Below, piece after piece: positions 6,898-47,371 of a DNA stretch of 64,000 nucleotides. The position numbers and the translations under genes were made by a program. This stretch comes from Phragmitibacter flavus. Lineage in GTDB: Bacteria; Verrucomicrobiota; Verrucomicrobiia; Verrucomicrobiales; Verrucomicrobiaceae. Every line of letters begins with the position of its first letter. The first letter of the stretch is position 1. The stretch covers positions 1 to 64,000 of the forward strand of contig NZ_VAUV01000008.1 in the NCBI RefSeq assembly GCF_005780165.1, written 5' to 3'. The notes below the pieces were generated by a model that was not told the origin of the DNA, searched no databases, and saw only the letters and a list, made by a program, of their open reading frames with translations.

Positions 6898-8448
6898 TCA
6901 CTTCTTCACCAACAAACTCCCCCCCGTCATCTCCTCCGGTTGTGCCACTCCCAACATCGCCAGCAACGTCGGGGCCACATCCGCTAGAACCCCGTCCTTC
7001 ACCACATAGCCATCCGCATCGCCCGCCACATAAATCCCATGCACCAGATTCGTCGTGTGCGCCGTGTTCGGTGAGCCATCCGGATTGCGCATCGTCTCAC
7101 AATTGCCGTGATCCGCCGTGATGAACAACTTGCCGCCGAGAGCCAGCACCTTCTCCACCACCAGACGCACTGCAAAATCAATCGTCTCCACCGCATGCAC
7201 CCCGGCCTCCACCACCCCGGTGTGACCCACCATGTCCGGATTTGCAAAATTGATGATCGCCAGATCATAATTCTCCAATCGACGCACCAGCTCAAATGCC
7301 AGATCCGGCGCACTCATCTGCGGCTTCTGATCATACGTCGCCACCTCCGCAGGACTCACCGCCAAATACCGCTCCTCCCCCTCAAACGGAATCTCCCGAC
7401 CCCCATTAAAAAAGAACGTCACATGTGGATACTTCTCCGATTCCGCCGCACGCAGCTGCCGCAACCCCGCCTTCGACACCACCTCCCCTAAAATATTCTC
7501 CATGCTCGTCGGCCCAAAAACCACGCGAGCGCCCAGCTTCTCATAGGTCGCATCATACTCCGTCAACGTGTAATACCCCACATGCGGCGTCGCCTCCCGC
7601 TCAAAACCATCAAACGTCGGATCAAGAAATGCCTGACTCAACTGCCGCGCCCGGTCAGCCCGAAAATTGAACCACAAAATCACATCATCATCCCGCACCC
7701 GCAGCTCGCCCACATGACTAAACAACATCGGCGGCATGAACTCGTCCCCGCGCGGTTCGATGGCATACTTGTCCTTCACCGCCTCCGCTGGCGTCAGCAA
7801 ACTCGCCTCTCCCCGACCCAAAACAATGGCATCCCACGCCAGCTTGTTGCGGTCCCAGCGTTTGTCCCGGTCCATCGCAAAATAACGTCCGATCACCGTC
7901 GCAATGTTCGCCCCGCTCGATGCCAGTCCCGCCTGCAATTTTTCCAAATAGGCCACCCCACCCGTCGGTGAAGTATCGCGACCATCCGTGATCGCATGCA
8001 CCATCAGATCATCCACGCCTGCCGCCTTCGCCGCATCACAAAGCGCCACCAAATGATCCTGATGCGAATGCACCCCGCCATCACTGATCAACCCCAAAAA
8101 GTGCAGGCGCTTCCCTCGTGCCTTCGCAAATGCCTCCTTCAACACCGGATTTCCCGCCAATTCGCCATCACGGATCGTCTTGTTGATCCGAGTCAGATCT
8201 TGATAAACAATCCGCCCCGCGCCCAAATTGAGGTGACCCACCTCACTGTTGCCCATCTGACCATCCGGCAATCCCACGTCCTCACCGCTTCCGCTCACCG
8301 TCGCCCAAGGATAGGTCGCATACAGTTCGTCATGAAACGGCGTCTTGGCGAGCAGCGTGGCGTCGCCATTTTCCACTGCTTTTTCTTTGCCACCCGGGTT
8401 GATGCCCCAGCCGTCGCGAATGATGAGAACTACAGGTTGTTTGGCCAT
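6898..8448 (-). CDS. gpmI: 2,3-bisphosphoglycerate-independent phosphoglycerate mutase
   Basis: A 516-residue cytoplasmic glycolytic enzyme that interconverts 3- and 2-phosphoglycerate using two Mn ions. The alkaline-phosphatase-like core has D12 in LIIRDGWG, the catalytic serine in GQMGNSEVGH (S68), and late metal ligands in NFANPDMVGHTG and FITADHGNCE. Length is typical for the family (about 510). ATG 8448 gives the standard N-terminus. It is divergent from the permease gene, and no glycolytic genes are adjacent. Confidence 0.97.
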   Translation of the reverse strand: MAKQPVVLIIRDGWGINPGGKEKAVENGDATLLAKTPFHDELYATYPWATVSGSGEDVGLPDGQMGNSEVGHLNLGAGRIVYQDLTRINKTIRDGELAGNPVLKEAFAKARGKRLHFLGLISDGGVHSHQDHLVALCDAAKAAGVDDLMVHAITDGRDTSPTGGVAYLEKLQAGLASSGANIATVIGRYFAMDRDKRWDRNKLAWDAIVLGRGEASLLTPAEAVKDKYAIEPRGDEFMPPMLFSHVGELRVRDDDVILWFNFRADRARQLSQAFLDPTFDGFEREATPHVGYYTLTEYDATYEKLGARVVFGPTSMENILGEVVSKAGLRQLRAAESEKYPHVTFFFNGGREIPFEGEERYLAVSPAEVATYDQKPQMSAPDLAFELVRRLENYDLAIINFANPDMVGHTGVVEAGVHAVETIDFAVRLVVEKVLALGGKLFITADHGNCETMRNPDGSPNTAHTTNLVHGIYVAGDADGYVVKDGVLADVAPTLLAMLGVAQPEEMTGGSLLVKK

Positions 8449-8574
8449 GTGCCCCTAGATGCGGCAAATTCCACGCCCTTGCAAGTCACAGCCTGCAAAA
8501 AACCTCGCTGAAATCCACGTGGGTCTTGCCTCAGGCCCCAGCGTGTGACACAAAAGAAGGCTCGCCCCATCTCA

Positions 8575-10392
8575 ATGCCTCCTGATCAACTCTTCGTCTG
8601 CGCACTCACTCTCACCGTCATGGGACTCTTCATCTGGGAAAAACTCCCGATGGAAATCGTCTCCCTCGGTGCCCTGCTGCTGCTCATGATCGTCCCTTTC
8701 GACGGTCACCCCATCCTCATGCCCGAGAACAAAACCGAGCAGATAACCATCCTCGGCAGCATCTTTGGCAACAACGCCGTCCTCGTCGTCTCCTTCATGT
8801 TCATCGTCGGTGCCGCCGTCGAACGCACCGGCCTGGTCGAAGACCTCGGACACTGGTTTGAACGCCTCGCCGGCCGCGGCGAACGCCGCATTCTCCTCTC
8901 CCTCGGGGTGCTCACCATCGTCTCCTCCGCCTTTCTCAACAACACCACCGTCGTCGTCGTCTTCATTCCCATGCTGATCGGCCTCTGCAAACGCATCAAC
9001 CTCCCCCCCTCCCGCTACCTCATCCCCCTCTCCTTCTTCGCCATCTGCGGCGGCATGTGCACCATCATCGGCACCAGCACCAACCTCGTCGTCAACGGCA
9101 TCGTCCGCCAGCGCGGCCTCGAACCCTTCGCCATCTTCGACATCGCCCCCCTCGGCATCGTTTTTTCCATCGCCACCATCACCTTCCTGCTCTTCTTCGG
9201 CCGCAAACTGCTGCCCGACCGCCCTAGCCTCGCCGCCCTCATCAATGTCGACGACAGCCGCGAGTTCCTCACCGCCGCCCTCGTCAGCGCCGACTCACCC
9301 CTTCTCGGCAAAACCATTGGCGAAACGCCGCTCGCCAAAATGCGCGACTCCCACATCATCGAGATGCGCCGCAGCGGCAACCGCATCACCACCCCCCTCA
9401 AACAGGTGCGCTTCGAAGCCGGCGACCGCATCATTTTCAAAAGCCACCTCTCCGGGGTCGTCGACATCAACGCCCTCAAAGGCATCGAAATGGCCTCCAA
9501 AGCCGAAATGGGTCTCAGCTACGTCCAAACCGAACAGGCCCTCCTCATGGAAGGCATGCTTGGGCGCCAGTCCAAACTCGTCGGGCACAGCCTCACCGAA
9601 CAAAACCTCCGCCAGCAATACGGCGTCATCATCCTCGCCGTCCACCGCCAGGGCGTGAACCTGCGCGAAAACTTCGAAGACGAAAAACTGGAAATTGGCG
9701 ACACCCTCCTCCTCGAAGGCTCAGCCGAACGCATGCGCCAGCTCTTCGAAGAACGCGACCTCATCAACCTCACCCAGCCCAAAGCCCAGACCTACCGCCG
9801 CAGCCGCGCCTGGATCGCCATGCTCGCCCTCCTCATGGTCATCGTGCTCGGATGCTTCGGCAACTTTATCCCCTTCGAATGGGTCGCCATGTCCGCCGCC
9901 CTCCTCGTCACCGCCACCGGCTGCCTCAAAACCGACGAAGCCTATCGTTCCATCGACTGGAACGTGATCACCATGATCCTCGGCACCCTCGCGCTCGGCA
10001 TCGCCATGGACACCACCGGAGCCGCCACCACCATCGTCCACGGCATGATGTCCGTCATCGGCGACTGGGACCCGCGCCTCATCCTCTCCGCCCTGCTGCT
10101 GCTCTCCATCATCCTTACCGAAGTTCTCAGCAACACCGCCGTCGCCGCCCTCGTCACCCCTCTCGCCTTCGGCCTTGCCGGCGACCTCGGATGCAACTGG
10201 GAACCTTTCATCATCGCCGTCATGGCCGGGGCCAGCATCGGCTTCGCCATCCCCGCCGGCTACCAAACCCACATGCTCGTCTTCGGCCCCGGCGGTTATC
10301 GATTTTCCGACTTCTGCCGCGCCGGCATCCCCCTCGACCTCATCATGTGGGTCCTCGGCTCGATCTGCATCCCCTTGTTCTGGCCTTTGTAA
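8575..10392 (+). CDS. SLC13/DASS-type permease with two TrkA-C domains
   Basis: A 605-residue inner-membrane transporter of the divalent anion:sodium symporter/ArsB-like fold. Hydrophobic segments fill about 1-200 and 410-605. Between them (about 220-400) sit two RCK C-terminal (TrkA-C) domains, each ending in a GDRIIF- or GDTLLLEG-like strand. Conserved NNTTVVVVF and SNTAVAALVTP stretches match the paired re-entrant loops. The substrate could be sulfate, a dicarboxylate or another anion. An in-frame GTG lies 30 bp upstream, but ATG 8575 has GAAGG about 14 bases before it and gives the usual start, so I prefer it. Confidence 0.88.
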   Translation: MPPDQLFVCALTLTVMGLFIWEKLPMEIVSLGALLLLMIVPFDGHPILMPENKTEQITILGSIFGNNAVLVVSFMFIVGAAVERTGLVEDLGHWFERLAGRGERRILLSLGVLTIVSSAFLNNTTVVVVFIPMLIGLCKRINLPPSRYLIPLSFFAICGGMCTIIGTSTNLVVNGIVRQRGLEPFAIFDIAPLGIVFSIATITFLLFFGRKLLPDRPSLAALINVDDSREFLTAALVSADSPLLGKTIGETPLAKMRDSHIIEMRRSGNRITTPLKQVRFEAGDRIIFKSHLSGVVDINALKGIEMASKAEMGLSYVQTEQALLMEGMLGRQSKLVGHSLTEQNLRQQYGVIILAVHRQGVNLRENFEDEKLEIGDTLLLEGSAERMRQLFEERDLINLTQPKAQTYRRSRAWIAMLALLMVIVLGCFGNFIPFEWVAMSAALLVTATGCLKTDEAYRSIDWNVITMILGTLALGIAMDTTGAATTIVHGMMSVIGDWDPRLILSALLLLSIILTEVLSNTAVAALVTPLAFGLAGDLGCNWEPFIIAVMAGASIGFAIPAGYQTHMLVFGPGGYRFSDFCRAGIPLDLIMWVLGSICIPLFWPL

Positions 10393-10393
10393 C

Positions 10394-10450
10394 ACAGCCG
10401 GGAGCGCCGCCGTCCTCGGGCGGCAGTCGTAACATAGGCTTACAGCCTGT
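10394..10450. repeat. REP-like double hairpin between convergent genes
   Basis: GCCGCC (10406-10411) pairs with GGCGGC (10419-10424), and AGGCT (10436-10440) pairs with AGCCT (10444-10448). The element fills the gap between convergent genes and may double as a terminator, although it has no T-run. It belongs to the class of short GC-rich palindromes scattered through this window. Confidence 0.6.
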
Positions 10451-10457
10451 CCGTTGT

Positions 10458-11597
10458 TCACCGGCCCAGCGCCTGATCCAAATCCGCGATCAAATCCTCC
10501 ACCGACTCAATCCCCACCGAGAGTCTCAACAGATTCTTCGCCACCGAAGACTCCGCCCCCTCCACCGTCGCGCGGTGCTCCACCAAACTCTCCACTCCGC
10601 CCAGCGAAGTCGCCCGTTTGAATAGCTGCAACCGACCCGCCACCTTCAGCGCATCGCCGTTCACACAAATCGACATCATCCCCCCAAACCCCTCCTTCAT
10701 CTGCTTTCGCGCCACCTCATGCCCTAAAAACCCCGGCAACCCTGGATACAACACCTTCTCCACGCGCAAGTCCCCCTCAAACCTCTCCGCAATCCGCATC
10801 GCCGCCGCACTCTGCGCCCGCACCCGCACAAACAACGTGCGCAATCCCCTCAACAACAGCCACGCCTCAAACGGGCCCAGCACATGTCCGGCCTGAAACC
10901 GGCCCTTCTTCAGCCCATCCCAAAACGCATCCTTCTCCCGCGTCACCACAATCCCCGCCACCACATCCGAGTGACCATTCAAATACTTCGTCGCCGAATG
11001 CATCACCAAATCCGCCCCCAGCACCAACGGTTGCGTGTGCACTGGCGTTGCAAACGTTGAATCCACCGCCACCCGCGCTCCCACCTCACGTGCTAACTCC
11101 ACTACCGCGGCAATATCTGTCACTTCCAAACTCGGATTCGCCGGCGTCTCAATCCAAACCAGCGCCGTCTTTTCATTGGCCAAAGCAATCCTCACCGCCT
11201 CCAGATCCGTCATGTCCACCTCCTCCACCTTCAATCCCCAAGGCACCGCCCAGTTCATGATCCATCCCCTCAACGCCCAATACATCACCGCCGGAATCAA
11301 CACCCGGTCCCCCGGCCTCAACGCCTGAAAAATCGCCGCCCCCGCTGCATTGCCTGAAGCAAACACCGCCGCATCCGCCCCTGCTTCCAACCGCGCCACC
11401 ACCTCTTCCACCAGATCATAATTGGGATTGTCCGCCCGCGAATACAACCGACCGCTCACCAACTCATAAGCCTCATCCCGCACATAAGTCGTTGAAGGAA
11501 AAACCGGCGGCACGATCCCCCCCGTCCCCACGTCCACAAACCCCAACGCCTGCGCCGCCAAGGTCTCCGGATCAAGTATAGAAAAGTCTGCGCTCAT
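10458..11597 (-). CDS. trans-sulfuration PLP enzyme (cystathionine gamma-synthase / O-acylhomoserine sulfhydrylase family)
   Basis: A 379-residue cytoplasmic enzyme of sulfur amino-acid metabolism. The PLP-binding lysine is K204 in HSATKYLNGHSD. Other family marks are the substrate-side YSRADNPN, ASGNAAG where PLP phosphate binds, ETPANPSLEV, and the C-terminal SLGGVESL and RLSVGIE. The family covers cystathionine gamma-synthase, gamma-lyase and O-succinyl- or O-acetylhomoserine sulfhydrylase; the sequence alone does not separate them. ATG 11597 is preferred over a TTG one codon upstream. No met genes are adjacent. Confidence 0.88.
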   Translation of the reverse strand: MSADFSILDPETLAAQALGFVDVGTGGIVPPVFPSTTYVRDEAYELVSGRLYSRADNPNYDLVEEVVARLEAGADAAVFASGNAAGAAIFQALRPGDRVLIPAVMYWALRGWIMNWAVPWGLKVEEVDMTDLEAVRIALANEKTALVWIETPANPSLEVTDIAAVVELAREVGARVAVDSTFATPVHTQPLVLGADLVMHSATKYLNGHSDVVAGIVVTREKDAFWDGLKKGRFQAGHVLGPFEAWLLLRGLRTLFVRVRAQSAAAMRIAERFEGDLRVEKVLYPGLPGFLGHEVARKQMKEGFGGMMSICVNGDALKVAGRLQLFKRATSLGGVESLVEHRATVEGAESSVAKNLLRLSVGIESVEDLIADLDQALGR

Positions 11598-11751
11598 CAA
11601 TCATCCACCATAATCGAACCGCTCCTCCGTCCCAACAAAAAATACCGCTTCCCCGCTCCGTCTCCATTTCCACACACCAGACAACAATTTTTTGATCGAC
11701 AAAATCACCACATTCCGTTAGCCTACACCAAGCAAAACCCCTTTCGCCCCC

Positions 11752-14700
11752 GTGTCCAACCTGCTCAACCTCGGCTCAGCGACAGCCTTCGGAAAATTTG
11801 CCGCCAACTGCGTTAAGATCTTCAACGAAGTCAGTCCCGCCCTCGTCGTCGGCACCGTCGCCGCCCCCGCCACAGGAGGACTCAGCCTCGTCGCCGCCCT
11901 TGGTGCCGCAGGCATCGCCATCGCCGACCTCTATCTTGATGTCAGCCAGGGCAGAGAGCTCGGCTCTATCAAGGACAGTCTCGACAAAATGCTGTCCCAT
12001 CAGCGGACCCAGGCAAACATCGCCGCCCTCAGCCTGACAACCCTCGATGAGATCAAACAGCTCATCGAAACCAAAACCGCTCCCCGCGAAGCCTTTCAAC
12101 CACTCCAATGCCTGCTCGAAAAAGAGCCTGACCTCGCCCTCTCCCTAAATCACTTGGTTGCCAGGGCCAGCGAAATTCAAACCGCCGCCACCTTCGACGC
12201 CGCAGCGATCATCGCCTCCAACCAGGAAGCACTGCTCCGCCTCATTCAAGACCCCAATTTGCCGGACAAATGCCGACAAAATCTTGCCTCCCTCATCGGA
12301 GAAATCAAAACACAGCTAACCGATCTCCACCGCGGCCAGCAAACCCTGCTGACAAACTCCCGCACCCTCTCCAGCAAATCGACTGTCACCATCCTGATGA
12401 CCCTGGTGATCGTGGCCATCCTCGGTTTTGTCCTCGTCAAACTCCATCAATTCGAACTCAAACAAGCCGCGCTCGCAATCCCCATCGACCGCCCAGGTCT
12501 CGGCGAACTGAAAATGGGGCCGGTCTACCCGCTGCCTCCTCCGTCCCCAAACCTCGTCCCCCCATCCCCAACCCCTTTCCCGACGCCAGCCAACCACAAC
12601 CCCGCCCAAAATCAACCCGACCTTCCGCCACCTGTGCAGGCCGCCTTCGACAACTTTGAAACGCTTGACCAACTCCATGACTTCGATGGACTCAAAAAAG
12701 CCGCCGACGACCTCATCCACCTTGCCCCCCGCAATGCCAGAGCCTGGTTCCTCCACGGGTATGCCGCATTCCAACTTTCCAAAGAACACACGGTCGGCCC
12801 TCAGGCCACTTCTCTCATGCAACAGTCCGAGCGCTCCGCCCTCCGCGCCGTCGAACTCATCGAAACCACCAAGCAATACCAAGACTTCCTCGCATCCTCC
12901 CTCAGCAATCTCGGCAGCGCCCGCAGTGAACTCGGCGAACTCACTGAGGCCGAAACCGTGCTGCGCCGCGCCGTCGAACTGGAACCCCATCACATTGATG
13001 CCTGGCTCAACCTCGACCATGTCTATGGCCAGAAAGGCACGACCGGAAAACCTCAACAACTCGCCCTTCTCCGCGAAGCATTCGCCAAAAACCCAGACCA
13101 TCCCCGAATCCGTGAACGGCTCCTCAGCGAGTTAACTCCCGACTACAATCGAAATTACTCCAACCTCCACCATCAAGAAAGCCTGACCCTCCTCGACGAG
13201 ATCATGCGCATCGAAACGCCCAACTTTGGCACCCTCGTCACCAAATTTCATCTGCACTTATCCTTGGATCAATTCGATCAAGCACAAGGCACCTTGGAAA
13301 AAGCCGTTCAACTGGCCAGCCACCCGCTGGAAACCGTCGAAACCATCCTCCTCAAAGCCACTCTTAACAAGCAACTGAACCCCAACCACACCGTCGCCGA
13401 AGACCCCGATATCCTCTCCACCTGGCCGCTCATCGAGTCCGCCATCAAGTCCACCGACAAGTCCACCAACGCCTACCCATGGTTTCTCGCCACCCACTAC
13501 CACAGCATTCTCGGCAACATCAAAAAGGCTAAAACCTACGCCGCCCAGATCCCACCCGCATCGGAATACTACCCTCGGTCAAAAGGTGCCATCATCGTTG
13601 CGGAATCTAACCAATACGGTCTTGAGATTGCCGCCCTCAACAATGAAAACCTCTCTGCAACAGAAATACAAAACCGCGTCAACCTCCTCACCGAGACCTT
13701 CTTCAACCCCCAGTTCCAAAAGGAAAACGCCAGCACCGAAGGACTTAGTGCCTTTTTTAGCCTGGTCCGCGACGGCCAACGATTGCTTCTCGCCGAAAAA
13801 TGGAACGACCTCCTCATCCTATCGAAATCCTGCGCCCTCAAGCACACCGAAGGATTCATCTTTGAATTGGCCCAATTTTACATCGGATTCGCCCACTACC
13901 AGCTCGATCAATACGAAGAAGCCAACCAGGCGTTTGCAGCGGCCATCAAACACAACCAAAAATTGCGTAAAACCGTCCTTCCTCTCTACGCAAGCTCCCT
14001 CTTCGAAGCCAACCGTCTTGAAGAAGCAGAACAGGCCTATCGCGACGCCCTGAAACTTAGCCCCGAAGACAGCTCTCTCGTCGTCAACCTCTGCATCACC
14101 CTCGGCAAAGTTAACAAACCCGACGAAGGCATCGACCTCTTTCGCCAATACCTCTCCACCCAAACTCAACCACTCACATCCCAGGACAGAAACATCATGT
14201 TCATGCTGCTTCGCATGTCGGCAGATCTAAAGGAAAAGGCCATCCACACCTTCACGGAAATCGAACCGGTCAAACAAACCTTGGCCCGCATCACGCAACT
14301 CTATGCAGAGGCCGCAGAGTTTGCCACCGACCACGAAAGAAAACACTACGCCTGGGCTAAGGAGGCAACCAGCTACTCCTCCCTCTCAGCCTATCCCGAA
14401 TGGAAAAGCCAGATCGATACCTACCTCAACAAGGTCCGAAAGTCCGACCCGTCTTTTGCCGAAACGAACCCCAATTTTGCAGGTCTGACCGGCTCGCTCC
14501 TCTTTTGGGAGACCTCAGAAACCGGACTTGAAAGCGCCCCTCGCCACCAATTACAAAGCATCCGCACCCAGCTCGAAAAAGCTGTCCAATCACCCTTCCG
14601 TCCACTTCGCTGGGACATCAACCTCGCCTACACCATCGACGCCCTGGGCGAGCCCGATCTGGCCATCGGTAACCTGGAAACTCTCGTATCCATAGCTGCC

Positions 14701-44525: not shown

Positions 44526-45095
44526 TCACACCGAGCGTGCCATTCCCGCGTGATACCCTTCGCCAACCTCCTCAATCAATTTCGCGTTGAACGCCTTCAA
44601 ATCGTCCGGCTTGCGACTCGTCACCAGTCCCTCATCCACCACCACCTCCTCATCCACCCATACCCCGCCCGCGTTTCGAATGTCTGATTGAATCGCTGGC
44701 CATGAGGTCATCCTTCGCCCTTCGACCAAACCCGCTTCGATCAACACCCACGGCCCATGACAAATTGCCGCAATGGGTTTCCCCTCTTCCGCGAACTCCC
44801 GCACAAAATCGATGGCGTCTTGATCCGCCCTCAAAGTATCTGGATTCACCAAACCACCCGGAATCACCAGCGCATCAAAGTCATCCGCCGAAGCCTCGCT
44901 CAGCGCCAGATCCACCTCAAATTCGTCACCCTTGTCCAAATGATTCATGCCCTGAATACGCCCCGTTTTCAGCGACACAATGCTCACCTCTGCCCCTTCA
45001 TTTCTCAAAGCTTCCAACGGCGAAGTCAGTTCGATCTGCTCAAATCCGTCTGCCGCGAGAATGGCCACCCTTTTGTTCTTCAACGATGTGTTCAT
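44526..45095 (-). CDS. DJ-1/PfpI family protein
   Basis: A 189-residue cytoplasmic protein of the DJ-1/PfpI superfamily (class I amidotransferase fold; members act as glyoxalases, deglycases, chaperones or proteases). The nucleophile elbow is AAICHGPWVLIEAG with the catalytic Cys followed by His, and the conserved Glu is in GFEQIELTSP near residue 19. The motif fits the PfpI/YhbO group, associated with stress resistance. ATG 45095 is preferred over an upstream start. It sits between the EndoIV-like gene (39 bp) and topoisomerase IB (18 bp) on the same strand. Confidence 0.93.
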   Translation of the reverse strand: MNTSLKNKRVAILAADGFEQIELTSPLEALRNEGAEVSIVSLKTGRIQGMNHLDKGDEFEVDLALSEASADDFDALVIPGGLVNPDTLRADQDAIDFVREFAEEGKPIAAICHGPWVLIEAGLVEGRRMTSWPAIQSDIRNAGGVWVDEEVVVDEGLVTSRKPDDLKAFNAKLIEEVGEGYHAGMARSV

Positions 45096-45134
45096 AAAGG
45101 CGGATCGAACCAGCAAGTCATTCCGGATGGACTC

Positions 45135-45974
45135 CTATGCCAGACTCAGGGTCAACCCCTCCAGATAACTCCGCGCCCTCGTCGCCCTCTCCAGGACCAC
45201 CTCAACCGGTTCATTCGCCCCACCCGACAGTTCCAAAATCAGCGAACCCGCAAAATGATACTTGTCCAATTCCCCCACCAGCCACGGCCAGTCAATCAGC
45301 CCTTCGCCCGGCGGCAAATGCGCGTCCGTATCGCGCCGATTGTCATTCACATGCAGCATCTTCAAATGCCCGGAAAGCGTGTGAATCGTCGTGCCCAATT
45401 CCCCCGCCAGATTCGCGTGCCCCGTGTCCAGACAAGCCCCCACATTGCACTCACGGATCTCACCCAGCAGATACATCATGTCGCTCACATGCCCAAACAA
45501 CAGATGCGGCAGCATGTTCTCCAAAAGTAACTCAATCCCCAAATCACAACACACCCGCGCCACCCGATCCAGCGACACCGCCGCATGTTTCATGTGCTCA
45601 AGAAACTCATGCGAAGGCGGCCGCCCTGACCGCTCCGGCCCCGGATGCAACACCACATGTCGCACCCCCAGCACCGCCGCCGCCCGACACGCCGTCAACA
45701 ACTCCTGCACCGCCGCCTCCCTCACTCCCGAGTCGAACGAAGTGATATCAATGTGATCCGCAAACGGCGCATGAAACGAAAACGGCAGCATGTCCAATTC
45801 GCGAATTTTCATCGCCGCCCGCTCCACCTCATCCTCCCGGTGATAATCCAGATGTTTCGGAAACGAACAGATCTCAATCACCCGAAATCCGCTGTTCCTG
45901 ATCTGCTCCAGCACGTCCACAAAACCGCGCTGATAAAAACATCCTGTCGACAAACCAATCGGCCACGTTTTCAT
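45135..45974 (-). CDS. TIM-barrel protein, endonuclease IV-like / sugar isomerase-epimerase
   Basis: A 279-residue cytoplasmic TIM-barrel protein of the AP_endonuc_2 superfamily. It carries residues at all nine positions corresponding to the trinuclear zinc site of endonuclease IV: H68 (SFHAP), H110 (VVLHPG), E152 (LLLENM), D183 and H186 (CLDTGH), H208 (LHVND), D217 and H219 (DAH), and E248 (LILEL). The DAHLPPGEG loop is also typical of sugar isomerases, so the substrate is open. ATG 45974 overlaps the primase-like stop (ATGA) and has AAGGA nine bases upstream, which decides the start. The coupling to a primase-like protein makes a DNA role attractive but unproven. Confidence 0.8.
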   Translation of the reverse strand: MKTWPIGLSTGCFYQRGFVDVLEQIRNSGFRVIEICSFPKHLDYHREDEVERAAMKIRELDMLPFSFHAPFADHIDITSFDSGVREAAVQELLTACRAAAVLGVRHVVLHPGPERSGRPPSHEFLEHMKHAAVSLDRVARVCCDLGIELLLENMLPHLLFGHVSDMMYLLGEIRECNVGACLDTGHANLAGELGTTIHTLSGHLKMLHVNDNRRDTDAHLPPGEGLIDWPWLVGELDKYHFAGSLILELSGGANEPVEVVLERATRARSYLEGLTLSLA

Positions 45975-47371
45975 AAACATTGATCCTTTAGAAGTTGCTC
46001 TCTCAATGGATCCAGGCACGCACCCGCATCCTCAGGTTTTCCGCAAAACCCTTTTTCAAAAGTGGAAACACAATTAAAATCCACCAACCGATCCACCCCG
46101 GTCGCATACAATCCGGCAAACGCCCGCACATAAAAATCCGCCCGCGTCCCCGCCTCATAATCCGCCCATCCCAACGGCCAGCCATACGCGGAATTCTCAA
46201 AGATCGAACGGATATACCCCGCCACATGACGCGGATGCCAGCCCTGCGCCATCAAGGTGCGCGTCACCAGTTGCATTCCCGCAGGCTTCAACAACCGGTC
46301 ATTAGGATCCTCCAGCACCCTCCGCACACACGGCGGCAACATTGCCATCGGAAGCTGCCCATAAGTCTGCGACCACCTCTCCGGCGGATCATGCCGCGTC
46401 GAATAAAAATGCTCATGAAAACGCCTCAACCGCGAAGCCAGATAGTCATCCAGCAAACGCCTCGTGCCCTCGCTCTGTTCCGGAATGCGCACACAAGCCC
46501 GGCGCGCCAGCTCATGCACGCTGTCCTCCACCTTCCTCACCTCCAGGGCACCCCGATAATCCATCTCGTGCAACGGAATCGCCCGCAACGCCGGCGAGTT
46601 CCCCTCCAGCCCCAGATGCTTTTCCATGCCGCTCAACCCCGGCTTCAGGTAATTCGTAAATGGCATCCTCACCATGCGCGTGTGCAGCGGATCACCGTAT
46701 TCCGAAATGTCGATCGAGATCATCTCCCTCGCCCCCGTCGCCCCCGGCCCCACATGCACCGCCGTGATTTCCACCGGCACCGCGCAAACCTTCGAAGCCG
46801 CTACCTTCACCTCCTGCGCCACATGCTCCAGCAACAGCCCCAGTCCACCAAAAGCCTCCTGCATCGCCAGATCAATCCTGCTCTGAAACATCGCCGGCAC
46901 CCGCAGCTGACACAACTCCGCCAGCTCCGGCGCAGGTCCCAATTTTCGGATCGATTCCGCCACCTCCCCCTCCCGCCGCACACGCCACACAAAATGATGC
47001 CCCTGACCCGTGATCACATGCAATGGACGAATCCCCCACTTCAACAACAACGCCTCAATCACCCGCACCACCGGCTCCTGCAGTTCAAACGCCCACAACG
47101 GATCCCGATAAGCCTCCAACGGCGAATCAAAATTCACATACTCCAAATCGAGATGCAGCAACAGCGACTCCTCATCCGCCAGCGACCTCGACACATCCGT
47201 CTGCTGATCCAACAACCGGTTCAATTCCGTCGGCAAATGCAACGCCCGCGGATCAAAGGACTGCCCGTCCGCTTTCGTGATGTAGATCGCACTCGCCTTC
47301 TCAAGCGAGTCGCCTCCCAAAAATTCCATCAACCGTTCTCGCACGGCAGCATCAGCATAAAAATGGTCCAT
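45971..47371 (-). CDS. single-chain primase-like protein (PriS-like core plus PriL-like Fe-S domain)
   Basis: A 466-residue protein that I read as an archaeo-eukaryotic primase homologue. Motif I is LHLDLEY (D75, E77). Motif II is TGQGHHFVW (H125/H126). Motif III is SIDISEY (D221), followed by R235-x-P and K243-P-G, as in the PriS RxPxSxHxKTG segment. From about 340 the protein resembles the Fe-S domain of the primase large subunit: LPPC (C348), then C434, C443 and C452, with RxDFYVRAFAGLYATGV between. Separate PriS and PriL chains are usual; here they would be one chain. The assignment rests on motifs only. ATG 47371 is used; a TTG lies one codon before. It is the first gene of the run. Confidence 0.72.
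   Translation of the reverse strand: MDHFYADAAVRERLMEFLGGDSLEKASAIYITKADGQSFDPRALHLPTELNRLLDQQTDVSRSLADEESLLLHLDLEYVNFDSPLEAYRDPLWAFELQEPVVRVIEALLLKWGIRPLHVITGQGHHFVWRVRREGEVAESIRKLGPAPELAELCQLRVPAMFQSRIDLAMQEAFGGLGLLLEHVAQEVKVAASKVCAVPVEITAVHVGPGATGAREMISIDISEYGDPLHTRMVRMPFTNYLKPGLSGMEKHLGLEGNSPALRAIPLHEMDYRGALEVRKVEDSVHELARRACVRIPEQSEGTRRLLDDYLASRLRRFHEHFYSTRHDPPERWSQTYGQLPMAMLPPCVRRVLEDPNDRLLKPAGMQLVTRTLMAQGWHPRHVAGYIRSIFENSAYGWPLGWADYEAGTRADFYVRAFAGLYATGVDRLVDFNCVSTFEKGFCGKPEDAGACLDPLREQLLKDQCL

Follow-up and report, generated by a model that had tools for sequence, protein, structure and literature searches.

The window analysed here is a stretch of 64,000 nucleotides from Phragmitibacter flavus, a member of the Verrucomicrobiota (contig NZ_VAUV01000008.1, positions 1 to 64,000). 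On its minus strand it carries two overlapping genes that form a fixed pair. The first encodes a primase-polymerase with an archaeo-eukaryotic primase (AEP) fold and a C-terminal domain bearing four cysteines, and the second encodes a TIM-barrel protein of the endonuclease IV superfamily. We propose, at a probability of roughly 0.5, that this locus is a two-protein cassette for DNA excision and gap repair, analogous to the mycobacterial combination of Prim-PolC and endonuclease IV (EndoIV). This proposal is based on the Prim-PolC-like fold of the primase, the fixed pairing of the two genes, a fusion of the two, the set of metal ligands in the partner, the absence of an Nfo over the cut-off from the host, the mycobacterial precedent, and searches of phages, plasmids and IMG/VR that found no relatives.

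The primase-polymerase and its cysteine-bearing domain

The 466-residue frame of the primase is real, and is read on the minus strand from 47371 to 45971. The plus-strand reading of the same interval (frame 1) encounters stops near its start. The residues picked out in the original prediction, an earlier reading of this DNA from the sequence, all lie where it had placed them: D75-L-E77, TGQGHH (residues 121-126), D221, and the cysteines C348, C434, C443 and C452. The alignment of the primase (A1) consists of the query and 62 distinct full-length genes, which are 43-63% identical to the query and derive from 76 loci, some of these being one gene met in two collections. The AEP motif set comprises D-x-E, G-x-H and a third acidic residue, and all three are present throughout the family (63/63). 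Residues D75, E77, H125, H126, D221, R232, R235, C348 and C443 are invariant in the 63 sequences. Because they are invariant or nearly so across so many sequences, the motifs and cysteines exceed what is expected by chance. One assignment requires correction, as H125 had been named the motif II histidine. From the alignments this residue is probably H126 instead, since only the second histidine is kept in more distant relatives (5/5 sequences), and since PolpTN2, from a Thermococcus plasmid, reads TGGGLQLW at this position with a glutamine in place of H126. The replacement of the motif II histidine of PolpTN2 by glutamine is also described in the excerpted text of PMC5862659.

An AlphaFold model of the full-length primase has a mean predicted local distance difference test (pLDDT) score of 91.0, and displays both the AEP/RRM-like catalytic fold and the fold shared by Prim-PolC and the LigD polymerase domain. 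In a Foldseek search the best match is Prim-PolC at an E-value of 2e-3, with none at 1e-3 or below. Structural alignment with VIA-align yielded a Z of 8 or more for 34 of the 836 aligned chains. Prim-PolC with gapped DNA (6sa0) ranks first (Z 16.9, root-mean-square deviation [rmsd] 3.4, 246 aligned), followed by LigD polymerases (Z about 15), CAPP Prim-Pol (Z 12.7-13) and Pyrococcus furiosus PriS (Z 11.3). The matches to these four types of enzyme cover residues 1-313 of the model, and the 6sa0 alignment extends to residue 433. Based on this ranking, the core as modelled is an AEP fold that is closer to the repair Prim-Pols than to PriS. The expectation of a single-chain AEP core is therefore borne out, while its description as PriS-like is not: the nearest folds are repair Prim-Pols, and the PriS profile (PF01896) has no match in the host genome at E <=0.001, although it did match in four archaeal control genomes.

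Searches with the primase protein alone gave no match in Pfam, NCBIfam or PHROGs scans, and phmmer found none in the PDB. The PDB matches of the primase profile consist of the lipoprotein sequence BT_2263 and a second, nearly identical sequence, at E 0.36 for the whole protein. The same two sequences are matched by a profile of the C-terminal domain at E 0.066-0.069, and in both cases the matches were taken as chance.

The cysteines of the C-terminal domain are strongly conserved in both identity and spacing. C434 and C443 are separated by 9 positions in 63/63 primases, and C348 and C434 by 85-87. C434 is replaced only in L054, which has a serine. A cysteine follows C443 by 4-14 residues in all sequences but one (L045), where cysteines are found at +1 and +3 only. 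A more divergent gene outside the 63 (L082, genome G172) retains the catalytic residues but has none of the four cysteines, and this joint loss is as expected if the four make up one site. The four cysteines probably hold a single metal site, which would more likely be an iron-sulphur (Fe-S) cluster than zinc.

The evidence that this domain resembles the large primase subunit PriL is weak but converging. The domain modelled alone (residues 292-466) has a pLDDT of 91.6. Its first match by VIA is the C-terminal domain of human PriL (PriL-CTD, 5f0q_B), with Z 5.8, rmsd 3.9 and 110 aligned (runner-up 4.3), and a Z below 8 (for helical folds, below roughly 13) may reflect a common arrangement. Foldseek with the domain alone gave a best E of 2.4 and no PriL among the best 50 matches. 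The PriL profile PF04104 (DNA_primase_lrg) matches 4 of the 63 primases (E up to 10), all below its cut-off and the best at E 0.01. This is no better than single chance matches in the same Pfam list, in which 14 other families appear, nearly all with one member each and with best E-values from 0.0083 (GMAP) upward. PF04104 is distinguished from these only by its recurrence in four primases, which are mutually related.

The same profile was also run across 57 related genomes (E up to 10), where no match exceeds the cut-off and nine fall below it. Three of the nine are on primase genes, including the best of them all (G033, E 0.049) and the window's own gene (E 0.52), and in 16 of the 19 genomes that carry the gene there is no match on it. 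The probability of placing three of nine matches in this way at random is about 6e-11 (taking the genomes to average 5.6 Mb), a figure that is too small because three related genes are treated as independent. The accepted PriL region of PolpTN2 gives no PF04104 match either, so the weak score of the present domain is no strong argument against its likeness to PriL. The 'PriL-like Fe-S domain' of the original prediction is thus upheld in part: the sub-threshold PF04104 matches, the human PriL-CTD alignment and the cysteine spacing point in the same direction, and the PF04104 cut-off is not reached. A PriL-like C-terminal domain is likely, but not proven.

The partner gene and its pairing with the primase

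The original prediction overlooked the next gene downstream, which encodes a protein of the endonuclease IV superfamily. In 75 of the 76 loci this partner follows the primase immediately downstream in the same orientation, and at the remaining one (L052) the contig breaks off within the primase gene. With start codons chosen mechanically, 57 of 62 loci show an overlap of the two frames, which amounts to exactly four bases in 39 of the 62. In the window the stop of the primase and the start of the partner share the four bases ATGA, an arrangement that suggests translational coupling. Among the 57 related genomes, a partner orthologue (421 bits or more) occurs in exactly the 19 that carry the primase, and all other matches score at most 50.3 bits. 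At one locus (L038) primase and partner form one frame of 758 residues, on a single metagenome contig where a sequencing indel is possible. The mirror-tree correlation of the two proteins is 0.83 over 62 genes, a value not corrected for shared phylogeny. Beyond the pair itself, the neighbouring gene cluster with the widest occurrence is found in 8 of 32 loci, and on visual inspection its example seems to be a misread frame.

The partner matches the TIM-barrel family PF01261 with an E of 3.6e-39, and on this sequence evidence it is an endonuclease IV-superfamily metalloenzyme. Nine putative metal ligands (H67, H109, E151, D182, H185, H207, D216, H218 and E247 in the numbering of alignment A2) are invariant, and occupy positions that we take to correspond to the metal ligands of endonuclease IV. 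All nine are identical in Mycobacterium tuberculosis EndoIV (5zhz), and eight are in 3aal, whose alignment ends before the ninth.

Table 1. Positions of the two genes and their features in the window, with the PolpTN2 gene used for comparison
Feature	Position	Strand	Remarks
AEP primase-polymerase gene	45971..47371	minus	466 residues; ATG start; TGA stop at 45971-45973
AEP catalytic core, residues 1-313	46433..47371	minus	Extent of structural matches
Motif I, D75-x-E77	47141..47149	minus	Invariant in alignment
Motif II, TGQGHH, residues 121-126	46994..47011	minus	H125 and H126 invariant; H126 likely the catalytic His
Motif III, D221	46709..46711	minus	Invariant; R232 and R235 after it also invariant
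Helical C-terminal domain, residues 314-466, likely PriL-CTD-like, with four Cys	45974..46432	minus	Weak PF04104 matches, domain model, structural comparison
C348	46328..46330	minus	Invariant
C434	46070..46072	minus	Cys in 62/63
C443	46043..46045	minus	Invariant
C452, fourth Cys	46016..46018	minus	Cys 4-14 residues past C443 in 62/63
ATGA overlap, primase stop and partner start	45971..45974	minus	4 bp
TIM-barrel partner gene, endonuclease IV superfamily (PF01261)	45135..45974	minus	ATG start at 45974-45972
Nine putative metal ligands of partner	45231..45773	minus	Invariant in 65/65
PolpTN2 gene	10248-13013 of plasmid pTN2

Distribution and genomic surroundings

The 19 related genomes with the primase include that of the window, which has two copies (G000:C8 and G000:C16) that are 58% identical. 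A collection with one genome per species contains 55 primase loci, all with Verrucomicrobia-type titles except two labelled Planctomycetes (L038 and L054). In an even sample of the host's own phylum 9 of 387 genomes match the primase (its own included), the last two in the C-terminal half only. In a sample of the phylum of L054 there are matches in 3 of 392 genomes, one of which is that of L054 itself, and the other two match only in the C-terminal part. Within genera g2 and g3, and among five of the seven g8 genomes, the pair has similar flanks. Not all g8 members fall together in the gene tree, and loss or transfer has therefore happened.

More distant AEP proteins (L124, L084, L138 and L139) carry a helical C-terminal domain without the four-cysteine arrangement, and their chains end before its last part. 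These Cys-less relatives keep D75, E77, H126, D221, R232 and R235. When one L124 protein was compared with alignment A1 by hhalign the probability was 98.6%, over columns 92-421. L124 has two such copies side by side in opposite orientation (8148-9512, plus strand, and 9843-11156, minus strand). No partner was found by tblastn near the Cys-less relatives, within stretches of 2 to 19 kb. In genome G172 (L082/L126), however, the partner is present and the catalytic residues of the primase are intact after all four cysteines have gone. Since no partner was found near the Cys-less relatives, the partner and the cysteine site appear to be linked to one clade.

Two further loci are seemingly decaying. 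In genome G307 (L083) the primase match stops early and the partner is matched over residues 135-232 only, and in genome G048 (L014/L021/L066) the primase gene is split and contains an in-frame TGA.

The host genome contains no Nfo over the cut-off. Ku and a ligase are encoded on contig C1 and a LigD-sized ligase frame (911 residues) on C25. The primase is not linked to an ATP-dependent ligase or to Ku, as these genes are on other contigs, and the pair is separate from the host locus for non-homologous end joining. No helicase, integrase or Ku gene is found among the immediate neighbours read, which agrees with the original prediction, and this statement covers those neighbours rather than the whole window. 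A motif search for PolX-like neighbours of the pair gave none, and HHH_8 and HHH_5 domains occur in 3 and 4 of 121 neighbours.

No primase relative was found by tblastn in phages or plasmids, nor in IMG/VR by exact peptide patterns, which detect close relatives only. With no relative in these three sets, it seems reasonable to regard the protein as a chromosomal repair or priming enzyme, as had been suggested. PADLOC produced no match to the primase and a match of just 11.9 bits (E 0.027) between the partner and one candidate.

Several other genes are located near the pair. In the window the TIM-barrel gene is directly followed by a DJ-1/PfpI family gene (44526-45116, minus strand), which was not seen in the flanks of other loci, and further downstream by a bacterial type IB topoisomerase (PF01028, PF21338; 43383-44525, minus strand). 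A topoisomerase IB homologue also lies beside the pair at L012 and L013, in opposite orientation, and at none of the other flanks of the 76 loci, many of which are short. The second copy of the pair has a gene for a universal stress protein (Usp; L123 10190-11089, G000:C16) some 200 bases upstream. Usp genes are found in the available flanks of 11 of 58 loci at distances of up to 8 kb, and the window's genome has about four of them (6 domain hits).

Proposed function and comparison with known systems

In mycobacteria, according to the excerpted text of PMC5663958, Prim-PolC fills gaps of 1-3 nucleotides, LigC is co-purified with tagged EndoIV, and in vitro repair is most efficient with EndoIV. 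By analogy, the partner would act as an endonuclease IV-type phosphodiesterase that incises abasic sites or cleans blocked 3' ends, so that a short gap with an extendable 3'-OH remains. With its PriL-like C-terminal domain keeping it in place on this gap, the primase-polymerase would then insert a small number of nucleotides, which may be ribonucleotides, before a ligase from another locus seals the filled gap. The metal site formed by the cysteines may stabilise the C-terminal domain and aid in gap binding. In this scheme we infer DNA as the substrate of the partner, a physical complex of the two proteins, the filling of gaps, and the kind of metal.

Several observations weigh against this proposal. 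The host genome encodes one ExoIII-type apurinic/apyrimidinic endonuclease, no ligase or glycosylase is conserved beside the pair among the neighbour families that Pfam assigned (only 25 of 133), and primase homologues exist without the four-cysteine arrangement and without a partner nearby. The partner itself reaches no NCBIfam cut-off. CbiR is its top-scoring model with 46.5 bits (cut-off 105), followed by deoxyribonuclease IV (NF002198) with 41.3 (cut-off 244), and the partner scores 31.3 bits against the nfo model TIGR00587 (cut-off 129.65). The closest solved relative, MJ1311 (E 8.9e-28), shares the nine ligand residues, as does TTHB071, and both proteins are listed as uncharacterised. 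Sugar epimerases (best E 9.4e-10) come close behind EndoIV (2.4e-12) in the matches of the partner profile. As the ligand set is shared by MJ1311 and TTHB071 and epimerases match nearly as well, the nine residues leave the substrate of the partner unfixed.

The primase could instead serve in replication restart or lesion skipping, much as PrimPol does, by making primers de novo on single-stranded DNA. Its PriL-like domain would then hold the initiating nucleotide, and the partner would trim primer ends or incise damage. The PriL-like C-terminal part of eukaryotic and archaeal primases serves initiation, so the likely PriL-like nature of the present domain counts in favour of this role. So does the structural match to CAPP Prim-Pol, which has also been solved as a primer initiation complex, and the invariant R232 and R235 after motif III resemble a flange arginine that LigD lacks (excerpted text of PMC5862659). 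However, the nearest folds are those of gap-filling and end-joining enzymes, a fixed endonuclease IV-type partner is better suited to excision repair, and neither a helicase nor SSB occurs among the neighbour families assigned by Pfam. A priming role of this kind is therefore considered unlikely.

An alternative that begins from the partner is that it is a phosphodiesterase or sugar isomerase acting on something other than DNA, either CbiR-like or new. The substrate of the pair would then be non-DNA or RNA, with a role such as RNA end repair or nucleotide processing. Such an assignment is less likely again, given that the fixed neighbour of the partner is a polymerase-type protein and that no cobamide or sugar pathway gene recurs comparably to the pair, as far as neighbour families are listed. 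It would nevertheless account for CbiR being the best NCBIfam model, though far under its cut-off, for the nine residues in MJ1311 and TTHB071, and for epimerases matching the profile almost as well as EndoIV. The excerpted text of PMC7733943 reports through CbiR that the endonuclease IV superfamily can act on other phosphodiesters, and that homologues of CbiR also keep the metal residues of the superfamily. A defence or mobile-element module, in which nuclease and polymerase act against invading DNA, would fit the patchy presence in relatives and the varied neighbourhoods, but is highly improbable in view of the PADLOC result, the searches of phage, plasmid and viral-contig sets that found no relative, and the similar flanks within g2, g3 and most g8 genomes.

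The excision and gap-repair proposal can also be drawn more specifically, in a form that is tentative and rather doubtful as a whole. The pair would be a chromosomal repair system in which a single-chain primase-polymerase, with an Fe-S cluster and a PriL-like domain, is permanently coupled to an endonuclease IV-type enzyme of its own, as one two-protein machine that incises or cleans abasic-site gaps and resynthesises them. The Fe-S site would be an add-on to an older family of Cys-less bacterial primases (L124, L138 and L139).

Some elements of the proposal have precedents. Cooperation between a Prim-Pol and EndoIV is already known in mycobacteria, and single-chain PriS-PriL enzymes are known from PolpTN2, Nanoarchaeum equitans and the Bacillus provirus phBC6A51 (excerpted text of PMC3973330). 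In the open-licence literature of PubMed Central (PMC), no description was found of a fixed pair of a primase and an endonuclease IV-type enzyme, or of a chromosomal bacterial AEP with this cysteine domain. If the proposal is true, excision repair by a Prim-Pol and EndoIV, so far described in mycobacteria, would be present in Verrucomicrobiota as a fixed and once-fused pair, and two small proteins would suffice to test directly in which order the steps occur and whether a physical complex is needed. The role of Fe-S clusters in primases would also gain a natural system, in the form of a bacterial PriL-like Fe-S domain that is not confined to mobile elements and has Cys-less relatives. Should the Fe-S site be an add-on to Cys-less bacterial primases, the family would also be informative on how PriL acquired its cluster.

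Among known systems, the LigD polymerase has the AEP fold in common with the primase described here, which is neither fused nor adjacent to a ligase or Ku. The archaeal and eukaryotic PriS-PriL primases share the AEP fold and provide the best match to the C-terminal domain in human PriL-CTD, whereas the present enzyme is bacterial and consists of a single short chain with no room for the PriL N-terminal domain.

PolpTN2 likewise combines an AEP core and a PriL-like cysteine domain in one chain, and its cysteines (581-671-677-686) are spaced similarly to those here (348-434-443-452). It is described as a PriS-PriL fusion with a predicted 4Fe-4S cluster that is light brown as purified (excerpted text of PMC3973330). 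It is, however, a plasmid-borne protein of 922 residues that has glutamine for the motif II histidine, while the present primase has 466 residues, is chromosomal and keeps the histidine. A profile comparison of the primase with the PriL region of PolpTN2 aligned 10 columns only and lends no support to a relationship. The traits given for the PolpTN2-like and PrimPol-PV1 groups in the excerpted text of PMC5862659 were not found: H125 and H126 are invariant, no PriCT is present among the 15 Pfam families matched by the 63 primases, and no relative was found in phages, plasmids or IMG/VR.

Both EndoIV (5zhz) and MJ1311, the closest solved relative of the partner, have the TIM barrel (PF01261) and the nine ligand positions in common with it, and the partner scores under the Nfo and CbiR cut-offs. 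The mycobacterial system differs in that Prim-PolC chains have about 330 residues, and in that Prim-PolC sits in an operon with ligase C (excerpted text of PMC5663958), whereas here an endonuclease IV-type gene is the fixed partner and no conserved ligase was found beside it. Prim-PolC is nonetheless the top structural match of the core, and the same text places a Prim-Pol and EndoIV in one excision-repair pathway, the combination that we propose for the pair in P. flavus.

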